The notes under the pieces were generated by a model. That model had not been told where the DNA came from. It worked only from the letters and a program-made list of their open reading frames with translations, and searched no databases. Positions 2,634 to 57,815 of a stretch of DNA of 64,000 bases are shown here, piece by piece. Position 1 is the first letter of the stretch. Each line of letters opens with the position of its first letter. The position numbers and the translations under genes were made by a program. Source of the DNA: Nitrospira sp. (GTDB lineage: Bacteria; Nitrospirota; Nitrospiria; Nitrospirales; Nitrospiraceae); assembly GCA_024998685.1 (NCBI GenBank), contig JACOEH010000021.1:1-64000 (forward strand), given 5' to 3'.

Positions 2634-4193
2634 TCACCGTTTTCCATCATAGCCTCGCTCTTTCCAGCGTTCCAGTAATTGAATGCGTTTCCTCAGTTGC
2701 TCGGCTGTCGCCTGATCGACACGGCTCCCGGTGCGCGCGATCAATTCCGCATTAAGCCTCCGATGATCGATTCCACTCGTTCGTGCCACGCCGGCAACCA
2801 GCAGCCGGTGAAGATCCCGCAAGTCTTGCTTCTGTTCATGGAGGGAGACGGCCGGTTCGGCAACGCCGACCGCGTCGCTCTCCCCTCGCGTCTCGTCTTC
2901 GCCGATGAGGCTGTCCATCCTGGCCACAGCCATCAACGGCATGTATTCATTGGCCGAGACCGTGACGCGGCCGAACAGATCTCGCTGCCCCACCGGCATG
3001 ATATCTTCCAACACATGATCGCGCTCCGCCTTGATTTGCTTGGCATAATGCACCAGAACCGGATCTTTCGGCAGGTACAGCCATGCCCGTTGCGGTTTAG
3101 GCAAACCATCTTGCATTCGAACGAACCGGCCGACGACTTGCCGGAAGTACATTTCCGTAATCACGTTCGTCCCATAGACACCGACACGGAGTCGCGGAAT
3201 ATCTACGCCCTCGCTCACCATGTTGACCGCCGCCAGCCACTGCTGCTTTTTATGATCGGCGAACTCTTCGATCGTGCGCGACGCCGCGGGATCGTCCGAT
3301 ACGGCAACGGCGGCCTTCGTGCCGACAATACGGCCGACGAGGTCTGCGACCCACCGCGCATGCTCCTGATCCATGCACACGATCAATCCACCGGCATCCG
3401 GTTGTTCCTGCGTCCGAAGGCGGGTTAATTGAGCATGAGCATCGGTAATCACCGGCCCCAGCCAGGTTTCCTGAAGCAATGCCGTCTTCAGCCGTTCGCG
3501 CTGCCGATTGAATTTCAGTCCATCCTCAAATGTCGCCTGATGCTCGCGGCCATCGGACAACCAGCTGAGTTCGCCTTCGTAACTCGGGAAGACGATCGGC
3601 CGGCAGACGCTGTCGCGGATCGCGTCGGTATACCCGTAGGCGAAATCCGCCCGGCTTTCTCCATTTTCATATCGAATAAACGGGATCGGATTGTTATCTG
3701 AACGAAACGGCGTGCCGGAGAGAATCAATCGAAACACCGCAGGATCGAACGCTGAGCGCAGCGCCTTCCCCCAGTTCTTACCGTCGCCGGCGTGGTGGAG
3801 CTCGTCGAAGATGAGCAACGTCTTCTTGCTCTTGCACACCCACTGAAAGCTCGCCGGAGCCAGACAGACTTGCTGATAGGTCACCACGGCGCCGTGATAG
3901 TCCGGTGCTTCTGCCGCCTGTTCATTGGTCAAAGTCGGATCAAGCTGTAACCCGATCTTCCCCGCGGCATCCGACCATTGCGTGCGGAGATGATTCGTCG
4001 GGCAGACGACCAGCACCCGGGCCGCAGCCTGTTTCGTCATAAACTCGTGCGCGACGCGCAGCGCAAAGCGCGTCTTTCCCGCGGCAGGAGTGGCCATCGC
4101 CAGAAAGTCTTTGGTCTGATGGGTACGGACAGCCGACAGAGCTCGCTGCTGCCAGTCACGAAGGGGCGCGGTCCAGACAGGCAATCGCTTCAT
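2634..4193 (-). CDS. DEAD/DEAH-box SF2 helicase (type III restriction Res-like)
   Basis: 519-residue superfamily 2 helicase. Visible motifs in order are Walker A-like AAGKT (37-41), Walker B DELHH (130-134, in the DExH position), motif III-like SGT (159-161), motif V EGVDIP (about 329-333) and motif VI QVVGRFVR (352-359). Both RecA-like domains are complete. The rest resembles stand-alone ResIII-type helicases, with no recognisable nuclease or methylase domain. It starts 41 bases after the end of top6A on the same strand, so it is probably the third gene of a top6B-top6A-helicase transcription unit. That suggests a role in DNA metabolism alongside topoisomerase VI (inference). No methyltransferase lies nearby, which argues against a restriction system. 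Confidence 0.85.
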   Translation of the reverse strand: MKRLPVWTAPLRDWQQRALSAVRTHQTKDFLAMATPAAGKTRFALRVAHEFMTKQAAARVLVVCPTNHLRTQWSDAAGKIGLQLDPTLTNEQAAEAPDYHGAVVTYQQVCLAPASFQWVCKSKKTLLIFDELHHAGDGKNWGKALRSAFDPAVFRLILSGTPFRSDNNPIPFIRYENGESRADFAYGYTDAIRDSVCRPIVFPSYEGELSWLSDGREHQATFEDGLKFNRQRERLKTALLQETWLGPVITDAHAQLTRLRTQEQPDAGGLIVCMDQEHARWVADLVGRIVGTKAAVAVSDDPAASRTIEEFADHKKQQWLAAVNMVSEGVDIPRLRVGVYGTNVITEMYFRQVVGRFVRMQDGLPKPQRAWLYLPKDPVLVHYAKQIKAERDHVLEDIMPVGQRDLFGRVTVSANEYMPLMAVARMDSLIGEDETRGESDAVGVAEPAVSLHEQKQDLRDLHRLLVAGVARTSGIDHRRLNAELIARTGSRVDQATAEQLRKRIQLLERWKERGYDGKR

Positions 4194-4233
4194 GGCCGGT
4201 GCATGATTACCGGTTCTCGGAAGGGAAGGGAGA

Positions 4234-5337
4234 CTAGTCCAGCCAATCCCGTTCCTGAAGTTTCTTCGGCAGATATTTCTTGGTGAGATACTGGAAGTCT
4301 TTATTGGCCAACGCGTCGAGTTCGTACTTCAATCCGCTCGTCAACATCCGCTTGATCTCCGCCTGCCAGGCCGGCTTCTGAAACCACTGGTAGTTCATCA
4401 ACTCTTTCGCGCGGGCGATGTCCTTTTCATTGAGCTTGATCCCGACATTTCGCGGCAGCTCGTACTGCTCCGGATCGGCGCTCGATAAGCCCATGAACTT
4501 GGCCTTCGGAATCGCCATCCGCTGGCTTTCAAAGGCGAGATTGATCGAGCCCTGTTTGATGACGGAATAGATGTAGTATCCCCATGGATCGTTGTCGACC
4601 AGGACATAAACCGGCAGCCGATGCTCCTCATGAAGCCGTCTCGCCAAACGCCTGACGCCACGCGGGGGCTGACCATTTCCAGTCAGGAGGATGCAGTTAT
4701 AACGCCGCCAAAACTTGTCCTCCGACAGCCGGTTCCACTGTGTGCCCTTTTCCACGAGCAATACAAAATCCGCCGTGCAGCGACGGATCTCCAGATACTC
4801 CGGCTCCACGATCGACGGCACGGAGTAGCCGCCTTTCCCCAACTTCGAACAGTCGACGCGATCGCCGTCATCGCCGAAGACCACCGGCCCGACGATGCTG
4901 CCGCTGTTCTCGGCACGCACATGCAGCTCCTCCCGAAGCGCGGCAAGGGAGACTTCCAAATCTTCGATCACCGGATCGGACTCATCCTGCGTATCGAAGG
5001 TATTCTCGTGCGAATCTTTGATCGTATGTTTCGTGCGGTAGTAAATTTCCCGAAGCGAAGTCGTGAGATCAGCCCGCTGCAATTCAGAGAGGGCATCGGC
5101 CACCAGCACCGTCTGCATGAATTTCTTCGCCATGCCGACATTGAAAAACGACCGCTCTTGTTTCTTGCTTCCCATCTCGATCAGGCCCTTCCGTTCGTTG
5201 AAGGACACATTCGAGAGAGCCCGGATCGGAATTTGAAACGTCGGGTCTTTTGATCGCTCAGCCGATTGGACCACAATATCCGCCAGGCCGATCAACTTCT
5301 TTTCAACGGCAGTCGCTTGTTTCTGTTTCGTCGCCAT
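4234..5337 (-). CDS. top6A: DNA topoisomerase VI subunit A (Spo11-like)
   Basis: 367-residue catalytic subunit of the type IIB topoisomerase, which makes transient double-strand breaks through a tyrosine on a winged-helix (CAP-like) domain. The active-site region REIYYRTKH carries the tandem tyrosines 99-100. The TOPRIM metal site is seen as Glu197 (LLVEKG) and the acidic motif VDNDPWGYY (Asp248, Asp250). Length is normal for archaeal Top6A. The start ATG lies 4 bases after the top6B stop, so the two subunits are translationally adjacent, B before A. Topoisomerase VI is typical of archaea and plants and only patchily present in bacteria, so this is notable. The gene is intact with all key residues. 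Confidence 0.95.
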   Translation of the reverse strand: MATKQKQATAVEKKLIGLADIVVQSAERSKDPTFQIPIRALSNVSFNERKGLIEMGSKKQERSFFNVGMAKKFMQTVLVADALSELQRADLTTSLREIYYRTKHTIKDSHENTFDTQDESDPVIEDLEVSLAALREELHVRAENSGSIVGPVVFGDDGDRVDCSKLGKGGYSVPSIVEPEYLEIRRCTADFVLLVEKGTQWNRLSEDKFWRRYNCILLTGNGQPPRGVRRLARRLHEEHRLPVYVLVDNDPWGYYIYSVIKQGSINLAFESQRMAIPKAKFMGLSSADPEQYELPRNVGIKLNEKDIARAKELMNYQWFQKPAWQAEIKRMLTSGLKYELDALANKDFQYLTKKYLPKKLQERDWLD

Positions 5338-5341
5338 GGTG

Positions 5342-7432
5342 CTATTTCTTTCCTCGTGGCTTTGAAACGCGAGTGGGTTTATTAGGTCTGTCTCGTCTAT
5401 CTTGTCTGTCTGGTGCCTCGAAGAGCGCTATCTGACTAGGTTTCGCTTTTGCTCCCTTCGGCGACTTTTTCTCGCGGCTCTCCCCGGCGGTTTTCTCTTT
5501 CGAAACCGGCTCATCAACTGACGGTGTGTCACCAAGCGAATCCGGCTCCGCCGTGGGCGCCATTGTCGCCTGATCGGCTTCGACCTGAGTGGCCAATGCC
5601 GTCTCGCCCTCGACTCCCTCCGCTGTGACGATGATGGAGTGAGGCAGCCCTTCAGGTCCTGCGCCGGTCTTGCCCAGCGTCTCGTCGGTCTTCGCACCAC
5701 CCGTCCGCGAGCTCGCAATTTTCTGAAGCTGCTCTTTCAACTTTTCTTTCGGCAGCTTGCCGCCCTTGAGCCGGTTGCACGCATCGACGACTTCTTCAAT
5801 GTACAGTTCGAAGATATTCCGTCGCCGATATTCACTCGCGGCTCGTTCGCGCCGACGAATAAAAAGACCCAACCGCCTGCCGCACTCGCGAAGCGCCAGG
5901 GTGATTTCCTTTTGGATCTCATCATAATCGGCGATCGCCTCTTTGGATTCACTCGTAAACGGCACCCACACCGACGCCATATGGACAAAGATCACCATCG
6001 GGCCACCCGGCAGCGCCCCGCGCGATTGGGTCAAGCCGTAGTTCTTCCAGGTTGTACTCAAGACGGCTTTGAACGTCGAACAGGCCGATTGTTGGTACAG
6101 TAACGGTACTCGATTCGCGTAACGGATCACGCGCGCGAGCTCCGAGTCTTCTTCTTCATATTCGCCTTCGGCCTTCGGCATGGCCGGCTGCTGCGGTTTA
6201 TTCTGATCCTGAGGTCTATTCCCGTAGGCGAGCCCGGCCTCGATGATGAACGGATTGCCGCGATAGACCGCCGGTGGACGGCTGACCGCCGTGTAGAATT
6301 CGCCTTTGATTTGCTTATAGAGCCCTGAGAGGATCGCCTTCTCGCCGATCGGTGAAATGCAGTTGGTCGGAGGCGCCATGATCTTTGTTTCTTGTAATGT
6401 CTTATACAGTGTCTCCGCCACCGGCCCCTTCAGATCGCGGGGTTTTGCGTCAGGCGAGACCTTCGCCGCTTTGCAGATTTCATCGGCCATCTGAGGGGAC
6501 ACTCGGCAAAAATCGGCGGCGAGGAAGCCGGAGAGCTGGTGGCTCTTCGTATCCTGCAACATCTTGAGCAGCATGCCGAACTCGATGCCGTACGGATGGG
6601 GCTTGATCTCACGCGGTTGCGGCGGCAGCTCATGATACGTCCTGGGATACTCTTTCGTCTCACCTTCCGGCGTCTGGTAGATCAGTTCCACGTGAGGATT
6701 CGCGATCGACGTCTGCTCCAACCATTCATCGACCGAAGCGCGGCCCTTCTGATACTTCCCTTCGACTTCCAGCGTGACTCGGGTCCCACGCGGCTGCTCC
6801 CAGTCGATCTGTTTGTTCTCGTGGACCAGCGGCTCGTTCTTTTTTGTATCGATCTGCACTTCGAAGAAATGCGCCGCGGCTTTGGGGCCGATACGGGAAA
6901 TAATCTTGACCGGCTTGCCGGTGGTCAGTTGTCCGTACATTCCGGCGGCAGAGATGCCGATCCCTTGTTGTCCCCGACTCATCCGCAATCGATGGAATTT
7001 GGACCCGTAGAGCAGCTTCGCGAAGATCCTGGGAATCTGCTGACGGACGATGCCGGGTCCGTTATCGGTCACCGTGACGCGAAACCTGGTTGCCTGGCTG
7101 GGCGCAACCGGCTCGCCGTTCGGCACCACTTCAAGCCTCACCGTCACATCGGGAAGGATCCCGGCCTCCTCGCACGCGTCGAGCGCGTTATCCACCGCTT
7201 CTTTGACGCAGGTCAGCAACGCCTTGCGGGGATTGTCGAAGCCGAGCAGGTGCCGGTTCTTCGTAAAAAACTCCGAGACGGAGATTTCCCGCTGACGCGC
7301 CCCCATCTCGACCGCAGTGACGCGTTCCGCCGGCTTGGCGGCGGCTTTCTTGGTAGCGGCTGGTTCAGGATTTGCTCGCGGAGCGGAAGATTTCGATTCA
7401 GTCTCTGACGCGGATTCTTTCTTTTTTGCCAT
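5342..7432 (-). CDS. top6B: DNA topoisomerase VI subunit B (GHKL ATPase)
   Basis: 696-residue ATPase subunit that dimerises on ATP binding and drives strand passage with Top6A. The Bergerat-fold ATP site is clear: N-box EAVDNALDA (78-86), G1 DNGPGI (123-128) and G2 GQQGIGIS (154-161). H2TH and transducer regions follow. It is longer than many archaeal homologues, with a low-complexity Lys/Ala/Ser N-terminal leader (about 1-45) and a charged C-terminal tail (about 580-696) rich in Lys, Glu, Pro and Arg. The end of the tail is encoded across a dispersed DNA repeat (5385-5402, giving a DRQDRRDR-like stretch), so part of the tail may derive from that repeat. It is the first gene of the top6B-top6A-helicase unit. 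Confidence 0.95.
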   Translation of the reverse strand: MAKKKESASETESKSSAPRANPEPAATKKAAAKPAERVTAVEMGARQREISVSEFFTKNRHLLGFDNPRKALLTCVKEAVDNALDACEEAGILPDVTVRLEVVPNGEPVAPSQATRFRVTVTDNGPGIVRQQIPRIFAKLLYGSKFHRLRMSRGQQGIGISAAGMYGQLTTGKPVKIISRIGPKAAAHFFEVQIDTKKNEPLVHENKQIDWEQPRGTRVTLEVEGKYQKGRASVDEWLEQTSIANPHVELIYQTPEGETKEYPRTYHELPPQPREIKPHPYGIEFGMLLKMLQDTKSHQLSGFLAADFCRVSPQMADEICKAAKVSPDAKPRDLKGPVAETLYKTLQETKIMAPPTNCISPIGEKAILSGLYKQIKGEFYTAVSRPPAVYRGNPFIIEAGLAYGNRPQDQNKPQQPAMPKAEGEYEEEDSELARVIRYANRVPLLYQQSACSTFKAVLSTTWKNYGLTQSRGALPGGPMVIFVHMASVWVPFTSESKEAIADYDEIQKEITLALRECGRRLGLFIRRRERAASEYRRRNIFELYIEEVVDACNRLKGGKLPKEKLKEQLQKIASSRTGGAKTDETLGKTGAGPEGLPHSIIVTAEGVEGETALATQVEADQATMAPTAEPDSLGDTPSVDEPVSKEKTAGESREKKSPKGAKAKPSQIALFEAPDRQDRRDRPNKPTRVSKPRGKK
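5385..5402 (+). repeat. Dispersed 18-base repeat, copy 1, inside top6B
   Basis: GGTCTGTCTCGTCTATCT, followed by a further TGTCTGTCTGG. The same 18 bases occur exactly, on the opposite strand, at 16211-16228 between prfB and lysS. Both copies sit in a context of GTCTGTC/GTCTATC units. Here the repeat is inside the coding sequence of the top6B C-terminal tail. Confidence 0.75.
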
Positions 7433-22228: not shown

Positions 22229-23155
22229 AGAGTCAGGCCTAGTTCTGTGCATTGTCACTAGCCTGAAGATTCACGAGACGGCTGATCGTCGAATAGTGCA
22301 GACCCACCACTCGGCCAATTTCGGACAGACTGTAGCCATGTTCCAGATGCGCACAACAAATGGCCTCATTACGTCGCGTGCGGTCCGCATGGTACCTGGC
22401 AGGGAACAAGCGGCGTAGCGGCGGTCGGGACGCAAACCGTTGTTGCCGTGGGATTTCTTTGAAGGGACGCTTGTCCCGGAGTTCAGCCGTCAGGCGTTCG
22501 ATGAACCGCTCGCTGCCGAGCAGCACTTGTCCTTGGACCTGTTCCCAGGGCGACCCATGGCCGATCCCCTCGGCGACAAAGGCCTGGTACTTCCGCTGGG
22601 CGGCCGCCCGCTGTCGGCCAAATTGGGATAGTACCCAGTCTTCCGCCAGAAACGCTGGCGCGGGGATGAGGCCCGCCGTCGCGCGATAGCTTGACCAGTG
22701 ATAACTGTCGGGCTTGCGGGTAGTCTTGGCCCGCACCGGATTAAGTACCACATACCGGCATAGCTCCAGCAGATAGCTGTCCCGGTCCATCAGGATCGCT
22801 TTGAAGCGACCTTGCAGCAAGTGGCCAACCCGACCATGACGGCGGTTGAAGGCTTGGGTGTAGACGCCGTTGAGCTGGCGCATGGCCTTCGACAGATTGG
22901 CGTCGGGCGTCTCCACGACCAGGTGAAAGTGGTTATCCATCAGGCAGTAGGCGTGCAGCAACAGATGAAACCGAGCAACGACGTGTGTCAGCACACCGAG
23001 GAACCGCTGCCGGTCCTCGTCATCCAGAAAGATGTCTTGCCGGGCGTTGCCACGGGTGGTGACGTGGTAGAGCGCGCCAGGAAATTCGATGCGCAGTGGA
23101 CGGGCCATCGGGCGGAGTATAGTTCATCGAGAAGCACAATACAAGATCTGACCCC
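22229..23155 (-). mobile_element. RAYT transposase element with imperfect terminal inverted repeats
   Basis: The transposase gene is bordered by AGAGTCAGGCCTAGTTCTGTGC (22229-22250, overlapping the gene's stop) and GCACAATACAAGATCTGACCCC (23134-23155). These are inverted copies matching at about 15 of 22 positions. Outside the right end, similarity to trpA begins within a few bases; outside the left end, trpA-tail-like sequence is seen. This suggests a 927-base unit that entered a trpA copy. No clear target-site duplication was noticed. Confidence 0.55.
22239..23108 (-). CDS. REP-associated tyrosine transposase (RAYT, Y1/HUH family)
   Basis: 289 residues. It opens MARPLRIEFPGALYHVTTRGN, the standard RAYT start, and has the metal-binding HUH motif (MDNHFHLV, His60 and His62) and a candidate catalytic Tyr119 (CRYVVLNPVRA). 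A C-terminal DNA-binding region ends with a helix-turn-helix (YSLSEIGRVVGLHYSTISRLV, about 258-278) of the DnaA/Trp-repressor-like type found in long RAYTs. All catalytic residues are present, so the protein may be active. It lies between two parts of what looks like a degenerate trpA copy. Confidence 0.9.
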   Translation of the reverse strand: MARPLRIEFPGALYHVTTRGNARQDIFLDDEDRQRFLGVLTHVVARFHLLLHAYCLMDNHFHLVVETPDANLSKAMRQLNGVYTQAFNRRHGRVGHLLQGRFKAILMDRDSYLLELCRYVVLNPVRAKTTRKPDSYHWSSYRATAGLIPAPAFLAEDWVLSQFGRQRAAAQRKYQAFVAEGIGHGSPWEQVQGQVLLGSERFIERLTAELRDKRPFKEIPRQQRFASRPPLRRLFPARYHADRTRRNEAICCAHLEHGYSLSEIGRVVGLHYSTISRLVNLQASDNAQN

Positions 23156-23410
23156 TATCTTTGTGCGAACTCGGCGACGTGCCGCGATCATCGCGGGACC
23201 CTGTTGGTGAGATGTGATGCGTTTGACGGTGGCGCTGCCGACAATCACTCCATCCGCCATCTTCGACACTCGCGCCGCATCGTCCGGAGTCGCTACGCCA
23301 AACTCAACAGTAGCAGGAGAATGGGAAACCTTCCTGAGTTTGTCGAAATTGTGCTGGATGTCCCCCCCGTTGCTCAGCTGCGCCCCTGTAATACCAATGA
23401 GTGAAATATA
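23156..23410 (-). pseudogene. Degenerate partial copy of trpA (alpha subunit, C-terminal third)
   Basis: The minus strand reads YISLIGITGAQLSNGGDIQH ... FGVATPDDAARVSKMADG ... VGSATVKRITSHQQGPAM. It aligns without gaps to the intact TrpA segment [20 protein letters not shown] ... [18 protein letters not shown] (about 70-75% identity by eye). A frameshift then separates the last HVAEF. There is no start or N-terminal two-thirds. Its end abuts the RAYT element at 23155. It is unlikely to be functional. The divergence implies an old duplication or an acquired trpA rather than a recent tandem copy. Confidence 0.85.
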
Positions 23411-23484
23411 GGAAGTTGATCTGGTATGAGTATTGACTGCGAAGCGACGGAAAGCTGAGGCTCGCCAGGTGTCCTGGCAGCTGA

Positions 23485-23721
23485 TCAACTTGCCTTTTTC
23501 TGTTCTTCCTTCAATCGCTCGGCAATCCACAACTTGATCACCGATTGTCTCGTGACACCAGGACGGCTTGCTTGAGCGTCCAGTGATTCGATGATCCAAC
23601 TAGGAAAATCGACTTTCACCCGTCGCTGCTCATGCCCAGGACGCCGCGCTCTAGAGAGTTCAAGATGAGGCGTCACGTCTTTCCCCTCATCAAACATCTT
23701 CTCAAGATTCTTTGCTTTCAC
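23485..23721 (-). CDS. CopG/BrnA-like antitoxin, without visible toxin
   Basis: 78 residues: MKAKNLEKMFDEGKDVTPHL, then SRARRPGHEQRRVKVDFPSW and a helix pair (LDAQASRPGVTRQSVIKLWI), the ribbon-helix-helix pattern of CopG/BrnA-type antitoxins. BrnT-type toxins normally lie just upstream in the same direction. The roughly 100 bases there carry no such reading frame, only frames closed by stops, so the toxin has probably been lost. It lies between the degenerate trpA copy and the helix-turn-helix gene. Confidence 0.7.
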   Translation of the reverse strand: MKAKNLEKMFDEGKDVTPHLELSRARRPGHEQRRVKVDFPSWIIESLDAQASRPGVTRQSVIKLWIAERLKEEQKKAS

Positions 23722-23817
23722 AGTAGAGTCGAAACGCCTCCGGTTACTCTACGCCTGCGACCTCGCGCCCGCAGGTACCTCCTTCGTTTCGTAACGAGTG
23801 CAATGTTGGACAGGCTC

Positions 23818-24087
23818 CTAGGCAGCAGACTGTTTGGTCACGTCCCAGCCGGGAAATACCAGAACGACGGGGTGGCATTGCAGGACACGCGCCAGGGTCT
23901 TGGCTCGCTCGACGCCCAAATTGATGGCATCTGTTTCAATGGCTGAGATGGTGGACTGAGGAATCTTCGTCCGTCGAGCTAACTCGCTCTGCGTGAGCCC
24001 CTGAAGTTCACGGATAATGCGAACGGATTCTCCCACCGACACGCTCACTCGTGTTTTTGCCGGATGAATGTCCTTGCGTCTCATCAT
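23818..24087 (-). CDS. XRE-family helix-turn-helix protein (antitoxin-like)
   Basis: 89 residues with a central helix-turn-helix (LTQSELARRTKIPQSTISAIE, about 32-52) of the Xre/HigA type, and a C-terminal VVLVFPGWD. Its ATG overlaps the stop of a RelE-type remnant (ATGATGA), the usual toxin-antitoxin order. With its toxin truncated it is probably an orphan antitoxin or a residual repressor. Confidence 0.75.
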   Translation of the reverse strand: MMRRKDIHPAKTRVSVSVGESVRIIRELQGLTQSELARRTKIPQSTISAIETDAINLGVERAKTLARVLQCHPVVLVFPGWDVTKQSAA

Positions 24088-24173
24088 TGCCTCCGATAAT
24101 CGTGCGCGGTCACGTCCAGGACTATGACGAGGGCGCGCCGGTCCTCAATCTTGTAGATCACGCGAGCATCCAG
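24084..24173 (-). pseudogene. Truncated RelE/HigB-type toxin remnant
   Basis: Immediately after the trpA TAG, and in the same frame, the minus strand reads LDARVIYKIEDRRALVIVLD then VTAHDYRRQ and stop. This is the typical C-terminal strand pair of RelE/ParE-superfamily toxins. The N-terminal two-thirds is missing. The break lies exactly at the trpA end, suggesting a deletion or recombination that joined trpA to the middle of a toxin gene. The downstream antitoxin-like gene is intact. Confidence 0.7.
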
Positions 24174-24977
24174 CTAGGCCGGCACCATCGCGGCCTTGAG
24201 AGACCGGACGAACTCGGCGACGTGCCCGACCATAGCGGGATCTTGCTGGTAGGACGCGATGCGTTTCACGATGGCGCTGCCGACGATCACTCCATCCGCC
24301 ACCTTCGATACCTGCGCGGCATCCTCGGGTGTCGCCACGCCGAACCCAACGGCTACGGGAGCGGCAGAGACTTTCTTCAGTTTGCCGATATTGTGTTGGA
24401 TGTCCTCGACGTTGCTCAGCTTCGCTCCCGTAATGCCCGTCAGCGAGACGTAGTAGACGAATCCGTGGGACTCTTTCGCCACCAGTTTTCGGCGATCAGC
24501 TGTGCTGGTCGGCGCAAGCAGGAAGATCAGCGAGAGCCCGGCTGCATCCGCCGGTGCCTTGAGCGGTCCCGCTTCGTCCGGCGGCATATCTGGGACGATC
24601 AATCCATCCACTCCGGCGGCCTTCGCTGCGTTGCAAAATTCTTCACAGCCCATAGCGTGGATCGAATTGTAGTACAGCATCAGGATAATCGGGATATTCG
24701 TCCGCTGCCTGAGCGATGTGACAGACGTGAGGATTTGCCGAAGGGACGTGCCGTTCCGCAATGCGCGCTCCGCAGCCTGCTGAATCACCGGTCCGTCGGC
24801 AATCGGATCGGAGAAGGGCACACCCAGCTCAATGATATCGGCGCCCGCCCGTTCCAACGCCAAGACCAATTGTTCTGTTTCAGTCAACCCTGGATCTCCC
24901 GCCATCAGATAGGCAATGAGGGCTTTCTGTCGGTTCTTCCGCAGGCCCTCAAATGTGGTTTCCAGCCGTCCGCTCAT
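24174..24977 (-). CDS. trpA: Tryptophan synthase alpha subunit
   Basis: 267 residues; cleaves indole-3-glycerol phosphate to indole and glyceraldehyde 3-phosphate inside the alpha2-beta2 complex. The catalytic Glu ([21 protein letters not shown]) and Asp ([13 protein letters not shown]) regions, the flexible loop, and the phosphate-binding FGVATPE and GVIVGSAIV segments are intact. The start overlaps trpB by 4 bases (ATGA). It is the last intact gene of the trp operon. Its stop is followed in frame by a toxin remnant, and a degenerate partial copy lies about 770 bases downstream. Confidence 0.97.
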
Positions 24978-50184: not shown

Positions 50185-50544
50185 ATGGTTGTTCGCAAAT
50201 TCCCACGGTTTCCGGTTGCAATACCGAGCACGTTGGTTCAGAGAGATAAACTTCGATACAACGCTTCCGTGAAGGATCTCTCACTGAAAGGCTGCCGGTT
50301 GGAAAGCGTCGTCCGGCCCTTTACCGGCATGCAGGTGGAATTACTCATTGAACTGCCCGGCGAACCTACCCCGATCCACGTCAACAGGGGGGCAGTCCGC
50401 TGGTCCGGATCTCATGGTATCGGCGTCGAATTCTTGACCGTAGCACCCCACGAACAGGAACGACTTAAGCGGGTGGTTGAGCAACTCTCCGGTCAAGTGG
50501 GACAGGCCCTCATCATTCCGAAAGACGAGCCGCCGAAAGCATAA
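50185..50544 (+). CDS. PilZ-domain c-di-GMP-binding protein
   Basis: 119 residues, single PilZ domain. The RxxxR-type start is seen in RKFPRFPVAIPS, and the DxSxxG motif in VKDLSLKGCRLES (about 29-41), followed by strands LLIELPGEPTPIHV and GIGVEFL. Both signature elements are intact, so c-di-GMP binding is likely. It is a useful comparison for the broken PilZ gene at 12952-13264. Confidence 0.88.
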   Translation: MVVRKFPRFPVAIPSTLVQRDKLRYNASVKDLSLKGCRLESVVRPFTGMQVELLIELPGEPTPIHVNRGAVRWSGSHGIGVEFLTVAPHEQERLKRVVEQLSGQVGQALIIPKDEPPKA

Positions 50545-50617
50545 GCCAACCTCGCTTATCTGAGGCACCCCTTTGCAGAGGCACTGTGGTGCCCACTTCA
50601 TCATCCGGAAAGTAAAT

Positions 50618-51394
50618 CTATTCGCGTTTGAGCTTGTTTTTGAGAGCTAATGAAAACATGACAAATAGAAATGGACCTGCCAGTGTTTGTACCCAGCTCC
50701 AAATACGAGGCCAGGTGAGCCCCTTGCCGAGATTCAGTTCATTAGGCTTGAGAAAACCCATGGTTTCGGCGCTAAAACGCAGCGCTTGGCCAAAACATAT
50801 AGTAGAGTCGTGTGGTTTGTAGCTAAGGAAAGAGCCGATACTCTTCAGAGCCCAGCCAAGAGGGTTTTCATTAAGCCACGAACCAATCCGGGTGAATTGC
50901 TGACCGACTGAATTCAATATCGGCCAGATGGTCCCATTGTATGCCCAATTGATCCATCCGACCATCCACTTGAATGTTTGATCGATCCAAGAATCGCAGC
51001 ATTCCCCTTTTGGCGGGAAAGGCTTTGAACTGCAGGCCATTTCAAGACCGGTAGCCGGCAGTGCAACAATACATTGTCCGGAAGCCCCGTCTTTCCCATC
51101 TCGTCCGTCCGTACCATCCCTGCCATCTCGGCCCTGAATACCATCCCTTCCGGGCATGCCATCTTTGCCATCCCTCCCGTCTCGTCCGGCTCTTCCGTCT
51201 CGCCCCTCCCTTCCATCTCGTCCATCTTTGCCGTCTTTGCAGAGATCACAAGTCTCGTTAATCCCACACGATATTGGGGTGGAACTATCTCCAAAGGAAC
51301 TCACTCGGATGGTTTCCTGCGCACAGGCATAGGAAGATACTAACGATAGGAGAAGCAGGATTATCCATAATTTCGATGTATTTCTTCGTGGCAT
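50618..51394 (-). CDS. Collagen-like membrane protein with a GXY repeat
   Basis: 258 residues from ATG 51394 (a GTG at 51415 is possible). An export signal (about 8-25, LLLLSLVSSYACAQ) is followed by a short cysteine-bearing segment and then a perfect run of 18 Gly-X-Y triplets (first Gly about residue 55, last about 106). The triplets are mostly GKD, GRD and GRE, a typical bacterial collagen helix without proline hydroxylation. After it come a Cys-rich segment (KGECCDSW), amphipathic Trp-rich sequence (WMVGWINWAYNGTIWP) and a C-terminal membrane helix (WVQTLAGPFLFVMFSLAL). Base composition is more A/T-rich than neighbouring housekeeping genes. It follows the pentapeptide-repeat gene on the same strand with a short gap. 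Confidence 0.72.
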   Translation of the reverse strand: MPRRNTSKLWIILLLLSLVSSYACAQETIRVSSFGDSSTPISCGINETCDLCKDGKDGRDGREGRDGRAGRDGRDGKDGMPGRDGIQGRDGRDGTDGRDGKDGASGQCIVALPATGLEMACSSKPFPPKGECCDSWIDQTFKWMVGWINWAYNGTIWPILNSVGQQFTRIGSWLNENPLGWALKSIGSFLSYKPHDSTICFGQALRFSAETMGFLKPNELNLGKGLTWPRIWSWVQTLAGPFLFVMFSLALKNKLKRE

Positions 51395-51421
51395 ACGAAC
51401 GAAGTTATCAGTCACTTATAA

Positions 51422-53104
51422 CTACGAAATGCTACTACTTAACCTACCACTAGCTTGTTCATTCTGTTGGCTAGGAGGATCAGGTTTCAAGGTGACTTGA
51501 TCGCTGCATGCGTAAGGAATGGCACCAAGAATCCAAATGAGAAGAAACCACCAGATCGGCCTCAGGACTCGCTCGCCGTACCCACTGACCAGCCAGTACA
51601 GCTGAAGCTGAATTCGAATTTGCCGAGGAACTTCATAGTTGATTCGGCGGAATTCTTTCTCTGCATAATGAAAGTCACTGGCATAGATGTAGTCCTTGTT
51701 CCCCTCATAAGCAGTCTTAAGGTCACGATACGCTCTGGATAGCAGAGCCCAACGATCTCTCCAGCGGGGAATTTCTCCCTCAAGCTCTTCCACAGTCTCA
51801 TAGTTACAATCCTTGAGCGCTCTATCTTGTTCATCATTCTGTAGTCGATGATCCCAAATACAGTATTGTTTCAAAGTCCTGCAAGATTCTCGGTACTCTG
51901 CGATAGTTTGTGATCGGTTAGAGCCTTGGTCGTCCGAGCGGTGTGGGACCATCCATCGAGTTGCAAAGCGTACAATAAATGATGCTTTAGAATGTATCCA
52001 GTGCGATGCGCCCGAACAAATGCGCACGACCTTGTTTACTACCCAAGCTCGTGTCCGTCGGTTGTTCGAGTTCTGCTCAAAAATCCTCAAAAATGCTGAA
52101 GACTTCTGAAGAGCGAGAGGATAGTGTGTTTCTACCTTTGGCCAACGGACATTGCTGAAGTGGCAGTTATCAAGATTAGTACCCAGTACTGAGCAACACG
52201 TGAGATTTTCTGTGTGGAATCGAAGTCCATGTGGCTTGTGGACATGGATGTACTTGAAGTTTGCATGAATGAATTCTTCCGAAACTTCTCCATACTTATA
52301 TTCTTCTTCATCTTTTTCAGATCGTTTCTTAGATTTGCGTAGCGACTGATTGAATTCAACAGATCCAGAGATTTGAGCATGAGAGAAGTTAATGATGTCT
52401 GCGTCGCTGTTGCTGCCTTTCACAAATGGGAATTCGCATTGCAAAAACGTGGTGGCCTTCTGCCATGTGGTCTTATGAAAACAAACGGGAACATGAAATC
52501 TCGCACGGTCGAATTCCGCCCCATCGTTGAATACAGCAGCGTGGAAGTTAGCACACACTTTTAAATCATGATTGTGCTCTCCGCTGTCACAAGACATGGG
52601 ATGGCAATACTCAAATTTGGACTCAAGAATTCCTTTGAGTACCGGACGACAGTCGTCACACTTCAAATTAGTTTCATGTGCGGGTGTGCCTTTATCAGAC
52701 TCCTCACGATCAATCCCGAAGTTCGCCTTTTCAAAATAGACCTTTTCGTCAAATGAACAATCTTCGAAGTTCACGCCATGAAAAAACTTACTATTGGTGA
52801 AGTCCACATAACGTTCGAATCGACATGTAAGGAAGGTCACTTCTCTGTGAAATTCTACGCCAGTAAATTTAAGAGGTTTCTTGAATGTGCAATGGTCAAA
52901 TACAAGAGCTGGATGGCCGTGACGTGGTAGTTCTGGTGGGAGTTTTGGTGAAGCCTGGAAAGTGCACCGGACAAATTTAAATGGGTTGGGTAGCTTGCCA
53001 TGATCAATGTCTAGGCTGAGATCCGGCAGAGGATCAACTTCCTTATCTTCGAGTGGGCTTCCGCTTCGCAGTACGTCAATAAACCAATGATGGCCTAGTG
53101 GCAT
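51422..53104 (-). CDS. Pentapeptide-repeat membrane protein
   Basis: About 560 residues (ATG 53104; TTG 53125 possible). The N-terminal 350 residues hold pentapeptide-type repeats of the A(D/N)LXX class, here in the F/C-rich form: VRCTFQAS, FDHCTFKKP, TGVEFHREV, LTCRFERYVDF, FTNSKFFHGVNF, EDCSFDEKVYF, and later NLDNCHFSNVRW. A Cys/His-rich middle follows (CDDCRPVL, HPMSCDSGEHNHD). The C-terminal third has charged helices (RWALLSRAYRDLKTAYEG) and a membrane helix (WWFLLIWILGAIPYAC), then a short tail. The gene is visibly more A/T-rich. It is paired with the collagen-like gene. Function is unknown; no nuclease or enzyme motif was seen. Confidence 0.7.
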   Translation of the reverse strand: MPLGHHWFIDVLRSGSPLEDKEVDPLPDLSLDIDHGKLPNPFKFVRCTFQASPKLPPELPRHGHPALVFDHCTFKKPLKFTGVEFHREVTFLTCRFERYVDFTNSKFFHGVNFEDCSFDEKVYFEKANFGIDREESDKGTPAHETNLKCDDCRPVLKGILESKFEYCHPMSCDSGEHNHDLKVCANFHAAVFNDGAEFDRARFHVPVCFHKTTWQKATTFLQCEFPFVKGSNSDADIINFSHAQISGSVEFNQSLRKSKKRSEKDEEEYKYGEVSEEFIHANFKYIHVHKPHGLRFHTENLTCCSVLGTNLDNCHFSNVRWPKVETHYPLALQKSSAFLRIFEQNSNNRRTRAWVVNKVVRICSGASHWIHSKASFIVRFATRWMVPHRSDDQGSNRSQTIAEYRESCRTLKQYCIWDHRLQNDEQDRALKDCNYETVEELEGEIPRWRDRWALLSRAYRDLKTAYEGNKDYIYASDFHYAEKEFRRINYEVPRQIRIQLQLYWLVSGYGERVLRPIWWFLLIWILGAIPYACSDQVTLKPDPPSQQNEQASGRLSSSIS

Positions 53105-53293
53105 ATTGTGCCCCGGCTTCTTCAAAAGCTCCGTGTCTGTGTCTGGACGCCGCGTATTATCGGAGTCTGACGTGAATCAGTCAATCAGCCTTAACGAGGA
53201 GAAACAGTCGCTATGAACGACGTCTTTGGGACTGCGAGGATTGAGAAAGAATAACGGTCAAGAAACGTGCAGAGCTTAGTTGTTACGTTATGC

Positions 53294-53848
53294 CTAGAAT
53301 CCTGGCTTATCCGACAAACTGTCGAGATGCAGTCGAAATTCCCCCGCTTTCGCGTCGATCACGTAGCGTCTCAAAGCTTCGCTGACCACGTGAAAGGCCA
53401 TTGTTTCCCACGGAATATCCGACAGAGGGAATAGTCGGACGTCCAAACTTTCCGCTCCCGCCTCAAATGCCGGCGTCTTCATTCGGCCACGAAACACCAA
53501 ATACACCTGTCCGATATTGGGTAGACTCAGCACGGCATAGAGTCCGGTAATGGCGACATCGGCATGGGCTTCTTCCAGTGTTTCGCGCACCGCCGCTTGT
53601 TCCGTACTTTCACCCAGCTCCATGAAGCCCGCAGGGAACGTCCACAGCCCCAGACGGGGTTCGATGGCCCGACGGCACAACAGGATTTGATCTTCCCATT
53701 CCGGAATGCAGCCTGCGACGATTTTGGGGTTGTGATAATGAATGCGCTCGCACTGGTCGCAGACGTGCCTGGGCAGGGTGTCCCCGAGCGGAATTTTATG
53801 CGTGACCGTTGCGCCACAGTGGCTGCAATAGTTCATGAGAACGTGCAT
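53294..53848 (-). CDS. Nudix hydrolase with N-terminal zinc ribbon
   Basis: 184 residues from ATG 53848 (53836 possible). An NADH-pyrophosphatase-type zinc ribbon (NYCSHCGATVTHKIP ... HVCDQCERI) is followed by a Nudix domain with the box GFMELGESTEQAAVRETLEEAH and the preceding LWTFPAG. The CIPEWEDQILLCRRAIEPR segment is characteristic of this zinc-ribbon Nudix group. Substrate is probably a nucleotide sugar or dinucleotide, but cannot be fixed. The long upstream frame to 54049 lacks homology and is not included. Confidence 0.82.
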   Translation of the reverse strand: MHVLMNYCSHCGATVTHKIPLGDTLPRHVCDQCERIHYHNPKIVAGCIPEWEDQILLCRRAIEPRLGLWTFPAGFMELGESTEQAAVRETLEEAHADVAITGLYAVLSLPNIGQVYLVFRGRMKTPAFEAGAESLDVRLFPLSDIPWETMAFHVVSEALRRYVIDAKAGEFRLHLDSLSDKPGF

Positions 53849-54096
53849 CGGGGTTCTCTTGAGAATATCAATACGGATAGCACAAACAGTGCTCTGCTTT
53901 CCATGCCGACAGTCAAGTCTTGCCCTTTCGCAATGCAGTCCAAACGGACCGGTATGTATGGAAGAGAGAGCGACGTAACGATCAGCGTCGATCCGTTGGG
54001 ACCCTCTTCTGATTCCCGAGGGAGCGGCAGGAAACTCTTCTCTGACCATTAGTTATCGTTAACCCGGATCTCCTTCCCTTGACTTCCATGCCGGGG

Positions 54097-54147: not shown

Positions 54148-56550
54148 ATGGAAAATAATAATGTATTGTCGACATTGCCGATACTCCCCGTCAAACGGAC
54201 GGTGTTGTTTCCTGGGGTGATGATGCCGCTGACGGTCGGCCGTGAGCGGTCCATTGCCGCCGTCAACGCCGCCATGAAGACCGAAGAGAAGACGATCGTC
54301 GTGGTGGCACAGCGAGATCCCCAGGCCGAAGAACCGGCACTCGCCGATTTGTATTCCATCGGCACGAAGGCGATCGTCAAGCAAATCGGCCAGTCGTCCG
54401 AGGGGACGATCCACGCGCTGGTTCAAGGGCTGGACCGCGCCGTCCTCCTGAAAGAAGAACAATCCGCTCCCTATTCCATCGTGCGCGTCCGTTCTTTAGG
54501 GCGTCCGACGGACGATGGGCCGGAAGTCCAAGCGCTTCACCGAGCCATTCAGGAACTTGTGTCGGACTTACCGAGGCTGATCCAAGCTCCCGGCATCCAA
54601 GAAGTCGGCGCGGTGCTGAGCAACGAGGATGATTCCGTGGCGCTGGCTTATCGCATCGCTTCGCTCGTCAATCTTGACGTAGTGGAAGAACAGCGCTTGC
54701 TCGAAAGTTCTTCGACGTTGGACCTCCTTCGCAGCCTCTACACCGCGCTGTCGAAGGAAATCCAAATCCTGCAGTTGCGGGAAAAGATCGCCAAGGATGC
54801 GCAGACCAAAATCGGCAAGAACCAACGAGAGTACATTCTGCGCGAACAACTGAAAGCCATCCAGGACGAGCTTGGTGAAGGTGAGGGCGAAGAGAACGAG
54901 GTCGCCCGGTTGAAAAAACAGATCGCTGAAGCCGATTTGCCCGAGCCGATTCGCAAGGAAGTCGAGCGCGAAGCCGCTCGGTTGAGCAAGGTACCGCCGA
55001 CGTCGCCCGACCATCAGGTCTTGAGGACGTATCTTGAACTGGTTCTGGAGCTCCCGTGGAAGAAGGCCTCCGAAGAACATCTCAATCTTTCAACGGTCCG
55101 GCAGGTGTTGGAAGAAGACCACTACGGGATCAAGGAAGTGAAGGAACGGATCGTCGAACACCTGGCGGTCTTGAAGCTCAATCCGACGGCGAAGGCCCCG
55201 ATCCTCTGTCTCGTCGGTCCTCCCGGCGTCGGCAAGACCAGCTTGGGGCAGTCGATCGCGAGGGCGATGGGCCGAACATTCGAACGATTCAGCCTTGGCG
55301 GCGTTCATGATGAGGCGGAATTGCGCGGCCATCGGCGCACCTATGTCGGGGCGCTACCGGGCCGCATCATTCAGGCCATCCGACGGGCGGGCGTCAACAA
55401 CCCGGTCTTGATGCTGGATGAAGTCGACAAGATGGGACGCGATTTTCGAGGCGACCCGGCTTCCGCGCTGTTGGAGATCCTCGATCCGGCGCAGAACCAC
55501 ACGTTCCGCGACCATTACTTGGATCTGCCGTTCGATCTGTCGAAGGTGTTCTTCATCACCACGGCCAACACCCTCGACACCATCAGCCAACCCTTGTTGG
55601 ATCGGATGGAGGTCATTCGCCTTCAGGGCTACAGCGAGCGCGAGAAAGCCGAAATCGCCCGGCGCTATCTGTGGCCGAGACGGCTCAAAGAGGCAGGCAT
55701 CGAGGGGAGCCAGGCCGTGCTCACAGACGAGGTGTTGAATCTCGTCATCTCGCGTTACACCCGTGAGGCCGGTGTGCGTCAACTCGAGCAGATGCTGGGA
55801 CGGTTGACCAGAAAAGTGGCCTTAACGTTCGCCGACCTTCCGGAAGGCCAAGAACGGCAGCCGATTGATATCCGTACCGATCTTCTCGGCGAGTGGTTAG
55901 GCTCCGAACGGTTTATGCCGGAAGAGGCCCGAAAAAATCTGCCTCCCGGCGTCGCAACGGGCCTGGCCTGGACCCCGACCGGAGGCGATGTGCTCTATAT
56001 CGAAACAACTTTGCTCCCCGGCAGCCACGATTTGACTCTGACGGGACAGTTGGGCGACGTCATGCAAGAGTCCGCGCGTGCAGCCAGAAGCTATCTCTGG
56101 TCGCATGCCGAGAGCATGGGTTTGGACATCTCTCGGTTTAAACGGAACGGGCTCCATATTCACGTGCCTTCCGGAGCTATTCCGAAAGACGGCCCATCGG
56201 CCGGCATCACGATGGCGACGGCACTCGCGTCCGCTTATGAAGGCAGGGCCGTCCGGAGCGACACGGCCATGACGGGCGAAATCAGCCTGAGCGGGCTTGT
56301 CTTGCCGGTGGGCGGCATCAAAGAAAAAGTGCTGGCGGCACATCGAGCTGGAATCAAACGGATCATCCTCCCAAAGGCCAATGAGAAAGATCTCAAGGAT
56401 GTCCCGCAAGAAGTGCGTGACGAACTGACCTTCATCTTGGCAGAACGGATTGAAGAGGTCTTACCGGCTGCCTTCAATCCTGACTCGTCCGATGGGTCGG
56501 CCGGGAACGGAAGCGAACCGGTAGAGGCCGCCAGCGCCACAGACGGTTAA
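54148..56550 (+). CDS. lon: ATP-dependent protease Lon
   Basis: 800 residues from ATG 54148 (AAGGA about 12 bases upstream). Degrades misfolded and regulatory proteins. N-terminal substrate-binding domain (LPILPVKRTVLFPGVMMPL), AAA+ module with Walker A GPPGVGKT (357-364) and Walker B VLMLDEVDK, then the catalytic Ser-Lys dyad at Ser684 (PKDGPSAGI) and Lys727 (VGGIKEKV). Complete LonA. An upstream TTG (54079) would add 23 residues without homology. Its stop overlaps the convergent gene by 3 bases. Confidence 0.96.
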   Translation: MENNNVLSTLPILPVKRTVLFPGVMMPLTVGRERSIAAVNAAMKTEEKTIVVVAQRDPQAEEPALADLYSIGTKAIVKQIGQSSEGTIHALVQGLDRAVLLKEEQSAPYSIVRVRSLGRPTDDGPEVQALHRAIQELVSDLPRLIQAPGIQEVGAVLSNEDDSVALAYRIASLVNLDVVEEQRLLESSSTLDLLRSLYTALSKEIQILQLREKIAKDAQTKIGKNQREYILREQLKAIQDELGEGEGEENEVARLKKQIAEADLPEPIRKEVEREAARLSKVPPTSPDHQVLRTYLELVLELPWKKASEEHLNLSTVRQVLEEDHYGIKEVKERIVEHLAVLKLNPTAKAPILCLVGPPGVGKTSLGQSIARAMGRTFERFSLGGVHDEAELRGHRRTYVGALPGRIIQAIRRAGVNNPVLMLDEVDKMGRDFRGDPASALLEILDPAQNHTFRDHYLDLPFDLSKVFFITTANTLDTISQPLLDRMEVIRLQGYSEREKAEIARRYLWPRRLKEAGIEGSQAVLTDEVLNLVISRYTREAGVRQLEQMLGRLTRKVALTFADLPEGQERQPIDIRTDLLGEWLGSERFMPEEARKNLPPGVATGLAWTPTGGDVLYIETTLLPGSHDLTLTGQLGDVMQESARAARSYLWSHAESMGLDISRFKRNGLHIHVPSGAIPKDGPSAGITMATALASAYEGRAVRSDTAMTGEISLSGLVLPVGGIKEKVLAAHRAGIKRIILPKANEKDLKDVPQEVRDELTFILAERIEEVLPAAFNPDSSDGSAGNGSEPVEAASATDG

Positions 56551-57815
56551 GACTCGTAGAGCGCGCGGACAATCTGCGTCGTATTGAACAGTAAGACGTG
56601 CCGGCGCGTATAGACGGCATGGCCATAGTAATGGTCGCGGGGGTTTGTCGAGCCGAAGCTGTCCTTGTAATCAATGAGGAGACAGCGTCCTTCGCTGGGA
56701 AAACGCACGGCTCGTCTGGCGCATTCCAGCCACCGTTCGAACCCATCGTACGGCTCGACCATCTCCCAGATCCGTTTGTTCGCCGCCTTGGCCGGTTCAG
56801 TCGGCGGGGCGGCATCGCTTCCCGCGACCGCCAGTTCCTGAACATAATCTCCTCCCCAGGCGATCGGCATTTCCATGGTAATTTGAGGCAACTCCATTTT
56901 GGCCAGCCAGCCCTTTCCATCCGTCCGCAAGTTCCGGTGATTCACGACGTGCAGCAGCTTGCCGATACCGGACGGATCCCACCCATAGCGAACCGGCGTC
57001 CCGAAAGTGACCATGTCGAGCGCGACGCCGTTAAGAGGTGCCGCCGTCGCGAGCAAGGACTCGACGAGTTTGATCGTGTCCGTGAGCTTGGTCTGATTTG
57101 TCTGACCGGCATAGTCGGCCAGAATCCCGAGAAACCTTGGTCGACCGGTGATGAGGCTTGGACAGAGCAGATTTGATACCAGCGCCAGGACTAGTCCGGC
57201 TTGTCCATGAGCCTGTATCAATACTCGATCCCCCTTGCTCAAATTCTGAAGTTGACAGAGCTTGTAGAGCTCGGCGAGCAGAGACACGGCGGCGATTGCT
57301 CGCCCTAGGTGGTGGTGCTCCGATGACCAGAGCAGCCTGATGCAAGAGATCGGCTGGCTCAGATTCTTATTGATCGCCTTCCTGATCGATTCGACATCGG
57401 CATTGGTAAAGTTACCCGCGTCCCCGATTTGCTGATCCAGAAGAGTTTTCGTCGCGTCATCGTCGAAAAGCGGCGGCTTCAATCCCCCCGGCAGCAATGG
57501 AATCCCGTTGGTCTCCTCTCGCATGGCGGCGAGCAACGCATCGACACCGGACACGCCCCTCGAATAGCCCCGCTTGAGTCCGCCCGCTTCATCTAAACGC
57601 TGCATGCCGAAGACATCGGTGCCATGAAGCGCACCATGGAGGAAGACAATAGTTGCGACCCCAGCTCCAGACAAGCTCACCCCGAACTTGCCCATGGCCT
57701 CGGCCCAAAGCGGCGAATCCGGAGGTGCGACATCCGCCAGGTCGGCGACCGTCAACCGCTCGCCGGGGTTCTTCCGCGACAGCTCATCGTGCTGAAAATT
57801 ATTCTCGATCGGCAT
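56547..57815 (-). CDS. Alpha/beta-hydrolase-like protein with apparent loss of the nucleophile serine
   Basis: 422 residues. A hydrolase-like opening (ATIVFLHGALHGTDVFGMQR, about 54-73) and a strand-turn-helix where the nucleophile elbow would be: DRVLIQAHGQAGLVLALVSN (about 197-216). Related proteins would have HSxAG at this place; here Ser is Gly204, so esterase/lipase activity is doubtful. A later MVTFGTPVRYGWDPSG and a C-terminal DHYYGHAVYTRRH could hold acid and histidine positions. No family name can be given; it may be a non-catalytic relative or use another residue. It is convergent with lon and overlaps it by 3 bases. Confidence 0.55.
   Translation of the reverse strand: MPIENNFQHDELSRKNPGERLTVADLADVAPPDSPLWAEAMGKFGVSLSGAGVATIVFLHGALHGTDVFGMQRLDEAGGLKRGYSRGVSGVDALLAAMREETNGIPLLPGGLKPPLFDDDATKTLLDQQIGDAGNFTNADVESIRKAINKNLSQPISCIRLLWSSEHHHLGRAIAAVSLLAELYKLCQLQNLSKGDRVLIQAHGQAGLVLALVSNLLCPSLITGRPRFLGILADYAGQTNQTKLTDTIKLVESLLATAAPLNGVALDMVTFGTPVRYGWDPSGIGKLLHVVNHRNLRTDGKGWLAKMELPQITMEMPIAWGGDYVQELAVAGSDAAPPTEPAKAANKRIWEMVEPYDGFERWLECARRAVRFPSEGRCLLIDYKDSFGSTNPRDHYYGHAVYTRRHVLLFNTTQIVRALYES

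Follow-up and report, generated by a model that had tools for sequence, protein, structure and literature searches.

A pair of adjacent genes on the minus strand was analyzed in a 64,000-nucleotide stretch of DNA (the window) from contig JACOEH010000021.1 of a Nitrospira sp. genome. Gene 1 (51422–53125, with a TTG start at 53125 or an ATG start at 53104) encoded a protein of 567 residues, consisting of a predicted cytoplasmic pentapeptide-repeat region, a helical linker, and a single hydrophobic segment, TM1 (residues 520–540). The pentapeptide-repeat region (52142–52981, minus strand) matched Pentapeptide_3 (PF13576, E 5.2e-12) and enclosed a Cys/His-rich insertion (residues 156–191; 52553–52660, minus strand), which is a possible metal site and is missing from all the intact relatives described below. 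A conserved cytoplasmic helical module, SRAYRDLKTAYEGNKDYIYASDFHYAEKEFRRINYEVP (51626–51739, minus strand), the signature of the family, lay directly ahead of TM1. TM1 itself (VLRPIWWFLLIWILGAIPYAC; 51506–51568, minus strand) was assigned by hydropathy and alignment with the TM1 of the relatives; its last residue is Cys540. The gene stops 27 residues past TM1, in the predicted extracytoplasmic loop. All three elements ascribed to this gene by the original prediction—the pentapeptide repeats, the Cys/His-rich middle, and the membrane helix—were thus confirmed.

Gene 2 (50618–51394, minus strand) encoded a product of 258 residues with an ATG start; a GTG codon located 21 bases upstream is a possible alternative start. 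A signal peptide-like N-terminus, MPRRNTSKLWIILLLLSLVSSYACA (51320–51394, minus strand), was recognized by sequence and hydropathy. It was followed by an uninterrupted run of 18 Gly-X-Y triplets (residues 55–108; 51071–51232, minus strand) matching Pfam Collagen (PF01391, E 4.1e-9), with Cys43, 49, and 52 and Cys108, 121, 132, and 133 in the flanks. Gly-X-Y runs elsewhere reached at most 4 triplets in the remaining five frames of the window, and the longest ones in 10 shuffles of the window had 3–5; a chance origin of the 18-triplet run is therefore excluded. The remaining part of gene 2 comprised a Cys/Trp-rich linker with an amphipathic, Trp-rich stretch (50816–50992, minus strand), a pore-helix-like segment FGQALRFSAETMGFLKPNE (50738–50794, minus strand), and a second hydrophobic segment, TM2, with a basic C-terminus (WSWVQTLAGPFLFVMFSLALKNKLKRE; 50621–50701, minus strand) ending in NKLKRE. 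The 18 triplets and the C-terminal membrane helix had both been foreseen by the original prediction and were found as described. Basic residues occupy the predicted cytoplasmic side of TM1 and TM2 alike. The linker had no relative in 296 genomes of the phylum except for one low-complexity chance match, and no relatives of gene 2 were found in viral contigs, phages, or plasmids; its PHROG matches corresponded to the collagen repeats, mostly of tail fibres.

The junction between the genes (51395–51424, minus strand) reads TAG TTA TAA GTG ... ATG, so that two in-frame stops are followed by GTG and ATG starts in the reading frame of gene 1, 9 and 30 bases, respectively, past the first base of its stop codon. 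The genes are 27 bases apart, and the ATG opens MPRRNTSKLWIILLLLSLVSSYACA. No clear ribosome-binding site was seen at the junction ahead of gene 2, and translation of the two genes may be coupled. An origin of the signal peptide by duplication of TM1 was considered and was not supported: the protein similarity between WFLLIWILGAIPYAC and WIILLLLSLVSSYAC was matched by 4 of 500 shuffles, and the DNA score by 150 of 300.

Both genes are more A/T-rich than their surroundings, as had been predicted: the flanks had a G+C content of 53.4% and 57.9%, compared with 45.4% in gene 1 and 50.1% in gene 2. The flanking genes are ordinary ones, encoding PilZ (50185–50544) and NUDIX (53294–54049) proteins according to Pfam, and Lon (at 54079) by reading; this, too, had been anticipated. 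The interval between PilZ and NUDIX (50545–53293) is variable: it is 89–375 bp long in several Nitrospira and contains about 1 to 7 kb of unrelated cargo in others. No direct or inverted repeats of at least 9 bases were found at its ends. Since the site is variable and the intact relatives are located elsewhere, the copy in the window is likely cargo, in agreement with the acquired look noted originally. In genome G115 (L118:3343–9012), the PilZ–NUDIX interval contained genes for macro-TIR (ThsB-like), SIR2, and nSTAND1-FHA proteins in a row, with the look of a defence cluster, and nucleotidyltransferase/HEPN-like pairs were read in the intervals of genomes G105 and G107. A defence role of the pair is conceivable from its position in a variable site, which by itself is not evidence of one.

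Several other loci of the window were noted, the first two by eye. In the region 2634–7432 (minus strand), adjacent genes resembling subunits A (4234–5337) and B (5342–7432) of topoisomerase VI, a mainly archaeal enzyme, adjoin a DEAD/DEAH-type helicase-like gene. A degraded second trpA-like segment lies beside the full trpA (24174–24977) in the region 22988–24977, adjoined by a REP-associated transposase-like gene (22239–23108). A 422-residue open reading frame (56547–57815, minus strand) had no Pfam match at E up to 1.

In a search of 175 genomes of the same family, both gene 1 and the last 55 residues of gene 2 had relatives, which colocate in the same genomes. In six other Nitrospira genomes (five are named MAG records), one gene holds both ends. 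These intact relatives, with up to 712 codons of open frame, are composed of pentapeptide repeats, the helical module, TM1, a variable loop, a pore-helix-like segment, and TM2. Their helical module reads YRDLKxAYExDxDYIYASDFHYxEKExRRIN, and TM1 comes after NGYGERALRP; the loop from TM1 to the pore helix varies from about 20 to 100 residues and is followed by EAAGFSxxTxxFLKPDFL and by TM2 ending in ALFAMFALAIRNKLKR. The pore-helix-like segment of gene 2 matches this motif, and its TM2 region had 60% identity to the C-terminus of the relative from genome G067 (E 1.4e-14; alignment over gene 2 residues 203–257). The intact relatives occupy a common chromosomal site, distinct from the PilZ–NUDIX one, amid housekeeping-looking genes. 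The copy of genome G067 is interrupted by a transposase-like gene (L043:10178–10948), and that of genome G101 has an in-frame TGA within the TM2 part; on account of these two cases, the family decays in Nitrospira. An intact family member is also encoded by viral contig L087 (IMGVR_UViG_3300032155_000020), and PHROG 15350, of unknown function, gave a weak match to the TM1 module.

A profile of three intact relatives, excluding the window sequence, was run on the 702 open reading frames of the window. Gene 1 matched only positions 1–86 of its 187 (E 1.6e-37) and gene 2 only positions 127–187 (E 5.2e-18), while all the remaining frames had E above 4. A phylum-wide family model likewise matched the window in two complementary pieces, 2–106 and 102–160 of 160. 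Thus, what anchors the collagen protein is the half that the pentapeptide protein lacks: the two parts are homologous to the two ends of one protein and complement each other, and the break lies between TM1 and the pore-helix-like segment. All features of the family are present in the window, including the pentapeptide repeats, the YRxLK...DFHYGEKExRR...GYGER module with TM1, and the pore-helix-like segment with TM2; encoding by one polypeptide is lost to the in-frame TAG and TAA and to the new start with its signal peptide. The predicted 'membrane anchor' of gene 2 is therefore not a generic one but the TM2 half of the gene 1 family. The closest known proteins are uncharacterised pentapeptide-repeat two-TM proteins annotated as 'pentapeptide repeat-containing protein' (for example, Nitrospira MAG proteins in L082–L086 and Streptomyces plasmid WP_327359780.1). 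They share with the window the repeats, the YRxLK..DFHYGEKExRR module, SGYGER before TM1, the pore-helix-like segment, and TM2 followed by a basic C-terminus. However, each is encoded by a single gene and has no collagen in its loop, whereas in the window the parts are divided over two genes and the break is occupied by the signal peptide and collagen cassette.

In both halves, differences are distributed over the codon positions as in constrained coding sequence, and divergence from the relatives is similar in proportion. Differences at codon positions 1, 2, and 3 were 0.25–0.31, 0.18–0.22, and 0.50–0.60 in the TM1 module and 0.35–0.44, 0.20–0.29, and 0.55–0.71 in the TM2 module; these values include divergence along the branches of the intact relatives, so the pattern does not prove constraint after the split. 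Identity to the relatives was 62–67% for the cytoplasmic module with TM1 and 51–60% for the pore-helix/TM2 part, near the ratio among the intact relatives.

The split arrangement with collagen was present in no other genome of 174 in the family, nor in 296 and 396 genomes drawn from the phylum, and a search of plasmids, phages, and viral contigs for co-occurrence of the collagen gene also gave nothing. The recurrent pairing of two separate families, as originally proposed, did not hold: in the genomes searched, the collagen gene accompanies its partner nowhere else, which is the outcome named in advance as refuting such a conserved system, and the real link is the closer one between two halves of one protein. 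That the genes belong together was nevertheless borne out, the C-terminal 55 residues of gene 2 being the C-terminus of intact pentapeptide proteins elsewhere. We found no paper describing a system with such pairing (the literature search was mostly outside subscription journals), consistent with the original statement. With a single genome as its only known occurrence, the arrangement offers no recurrence by which selection on the split could be shown.

In our interpretation, the two genes are probably the halves of one naturally split two-TM, channel-like membrane protein with pentapeptide repeats and a periplasmic collagen stalk. Within the extracytoplasmic loop, the split would fall after TM1 and ahead of the pore-helix-like segment, and the cassette at the break would consist of the signal peptide, the 18-triplet collagen run, and the Cys/Trp-rich linker. 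Gene 1 would contribute TM1 and, on the cytoplasmic side, the pentapeptide solenoid. Gene 2 would be exported N-terminus out via its signal peptide, placing the collagen part in the periplasm, and TM2 would insert with its KNKLKR tail inside, in the same orientation as in the intact relatives; by the positive-inside rule, this orientation would be restored by the signal peptide of gene 2. The halves, made together, could come to lie next to each other and so restore the ancestral unit. A disulphide might assist them, Cys540 (gene 1) and Cys200 (gene 2) each being predicted to sit at the outer face; most intact relatives have no Cys at these positions. The collagen parts could trimerise into a periplasmic stalk that would cluster or tether the units; with a rise of roughly 0.29 nm per residue, its 54 residues would span about 15 nm. 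The trimeric state of collagen is not easily reconciled with the tetrameric one of P-loop channels; given this mismatch, the stalk may link neighbouring units. That the halves form a channel whose assembly or gating is governed by the collagen triple helix of the pore half, acting as a channel tether, is a speculative and rather doubtful extension. There is a precedent for function from halves: hERG channels divided within their inter-TM loops work when the halves are co-expressed (PMC6013512).

The resemblance to channels was examined by structure prediction and by sequence and profile comparison. Models were of low confidence, with a mean pLDDT of 50.7 for an intact relative and 48.6 for the window read through both stops (AlphaFold2). 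In the latter model, the gene 2 part has a helical linker, and TM1 of gene 1 is packed onto its pore-helix-like segment and TM2. VIA-align of this model yielded Z scores of 8.1–9.7 with NaK, Kv-type pore, Kir, and KcsA subunits, although the tool cautions that, for helical arrangements, a Z below about 13 may mean no more than a common arrangement. The fits mostly had rmsd 2.4–3.5 over 84–97 residues (NaK, Z 9.7, 3.5 Å over 95 residues), and nearly all listed rows were K+-channel-type pores. For the intact-relative model, VIA returned solenoids only, which filled the list, and Foldseek placed KcsA among the matches with a probability of 0.99 but an E value of 0.45; neither model had a Foldseek match with E below 0.001. 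A sequence search of solved structures revealed nothing convincing. No Pfam ion-channel match (Ion_trans_2) was obtained in 12 family members, and the TVGYG selectivity filter was absent, being replaced by TMGFLKP in the window and FLKPD in the relatives. When 15 true K+ channels of the same bacterial family were used for profile comparison by hhalign, the probability was 5.7%, not above the 0.2–17.9% of the shuffled controls; the short aligned stretch was that of the pore helix and filter. The low-confidence model shows TM1, a re-entrant helix, and TM2 in an order that may resemble NaK/KcsA/Kir P-loop pores (Z 8–9.7), from which the protein differs in lacking the TVGYG filter, Ion_trans_2, and a significant profile match. 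Modeling weakly suggests a family product that is channel-like, which is not to call it a channel.

The main rival explanation is that the insertion of the cassette inactivated the ancestral protein, leaving gene 1 as a remnant and gene 2 as a collagen-like surface or periplasmic protein anchored in the membrane by TM2. The single occurrence of the arrangement, the decay of the family in the genus (the interrupted copy of G067 and the in-frame TGA of G101), and the lack of an evident ribosome-binding site for gene 2 agree with a broken gene. At the same time, both frames are intact and show coding constraint by codon position, and both conserved segments are still recognisable at identities near the ratio of the intact relatives. 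We consider inactivation possible but unlikely. In gene 2 itself, the Gly-X-Y run, the export signal, and the membrane attachment are shared with bacterial collagen-like proteins (Scl, Bucl, and others; PMC8968730); however, the anchor of gene 2 is half of the membrane domain of another protein, its run is short and Cys-flanked, and an LPXTG anchor is lacking.

A role as a defence effector, in which the protein, split or not, permeabilises the membrane in a HalA-like anti-phage system within a defence hotspot, appears improbable. HalA of the Hailong system has been called an ion channel (PMC13275509), and the HalA model (NCBIfam NF051894) weakly matched the pentapeptide part (E 4.1e-4), which places pentapeptide-like repeats in a membrane protein in both cases; the defence-type contents of the PilZ–NUDIX interval in G115 and the nucleotidyltransferase/HEPN-like pairs in other relatives also point this way. 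However, the match had 19.7 bits against a cut-off of 250 and was confined to the repeats, and no match above the cut-off was obtained over the phylum. No HalB nucleotidyltransferase was located beside the pair, where the neighbours are PilZ and NUDIX by Pfam and the other nearby frames were judged by reading. PADLOC gave nothing meaningful (a single marginal match, E 0.008), and the intact relatives reside at a common chromosomal site amid housekeeping-looking genes.

Readthrough of TAG TTA TAA, which would yield one protein carrying collagen in an internal loop, is very improbable: the genes do share one frame at a distance of only 27 bases, but two of the three codons are stops, gene 2 begins right after them with its own start codon and signal peptide, and a second export signal would be needless in a continuous chain. 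Finally, two unrelated adjacent genes or an assembly chimera, which the differing G+C contents and the single genome might suggest, can hardly be credited, as the former is refuted by the complementary matches of the two genes to relatives that carry both ends on a single gene and the latter would require false joins that leave both frames open.

The locus is thus real and unusual, and the split of one membrane protein explains it better than the original prediction did; it occurs once, and the function proposed for it derives from sequence and models. If the gene is merely broken, the locus is a curiosity. If the halves reassemble, it shows that a membrane protein may be split in an extracytoplasmic loop and still keep its topology, because the inserted cassette carries its own signal peptide. 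With this locus, it can be asked in a natural setting whether a pore-like domain with two TMs withstands interruption between its TM1 and pore helix. In bacteria, it is possibly the first example in which a channel-like membrane domain is linked to a collagen-like region. It further brings into view the pentapeptide-repeat two-TM proteins, a family that is widespread and uncharacterised.
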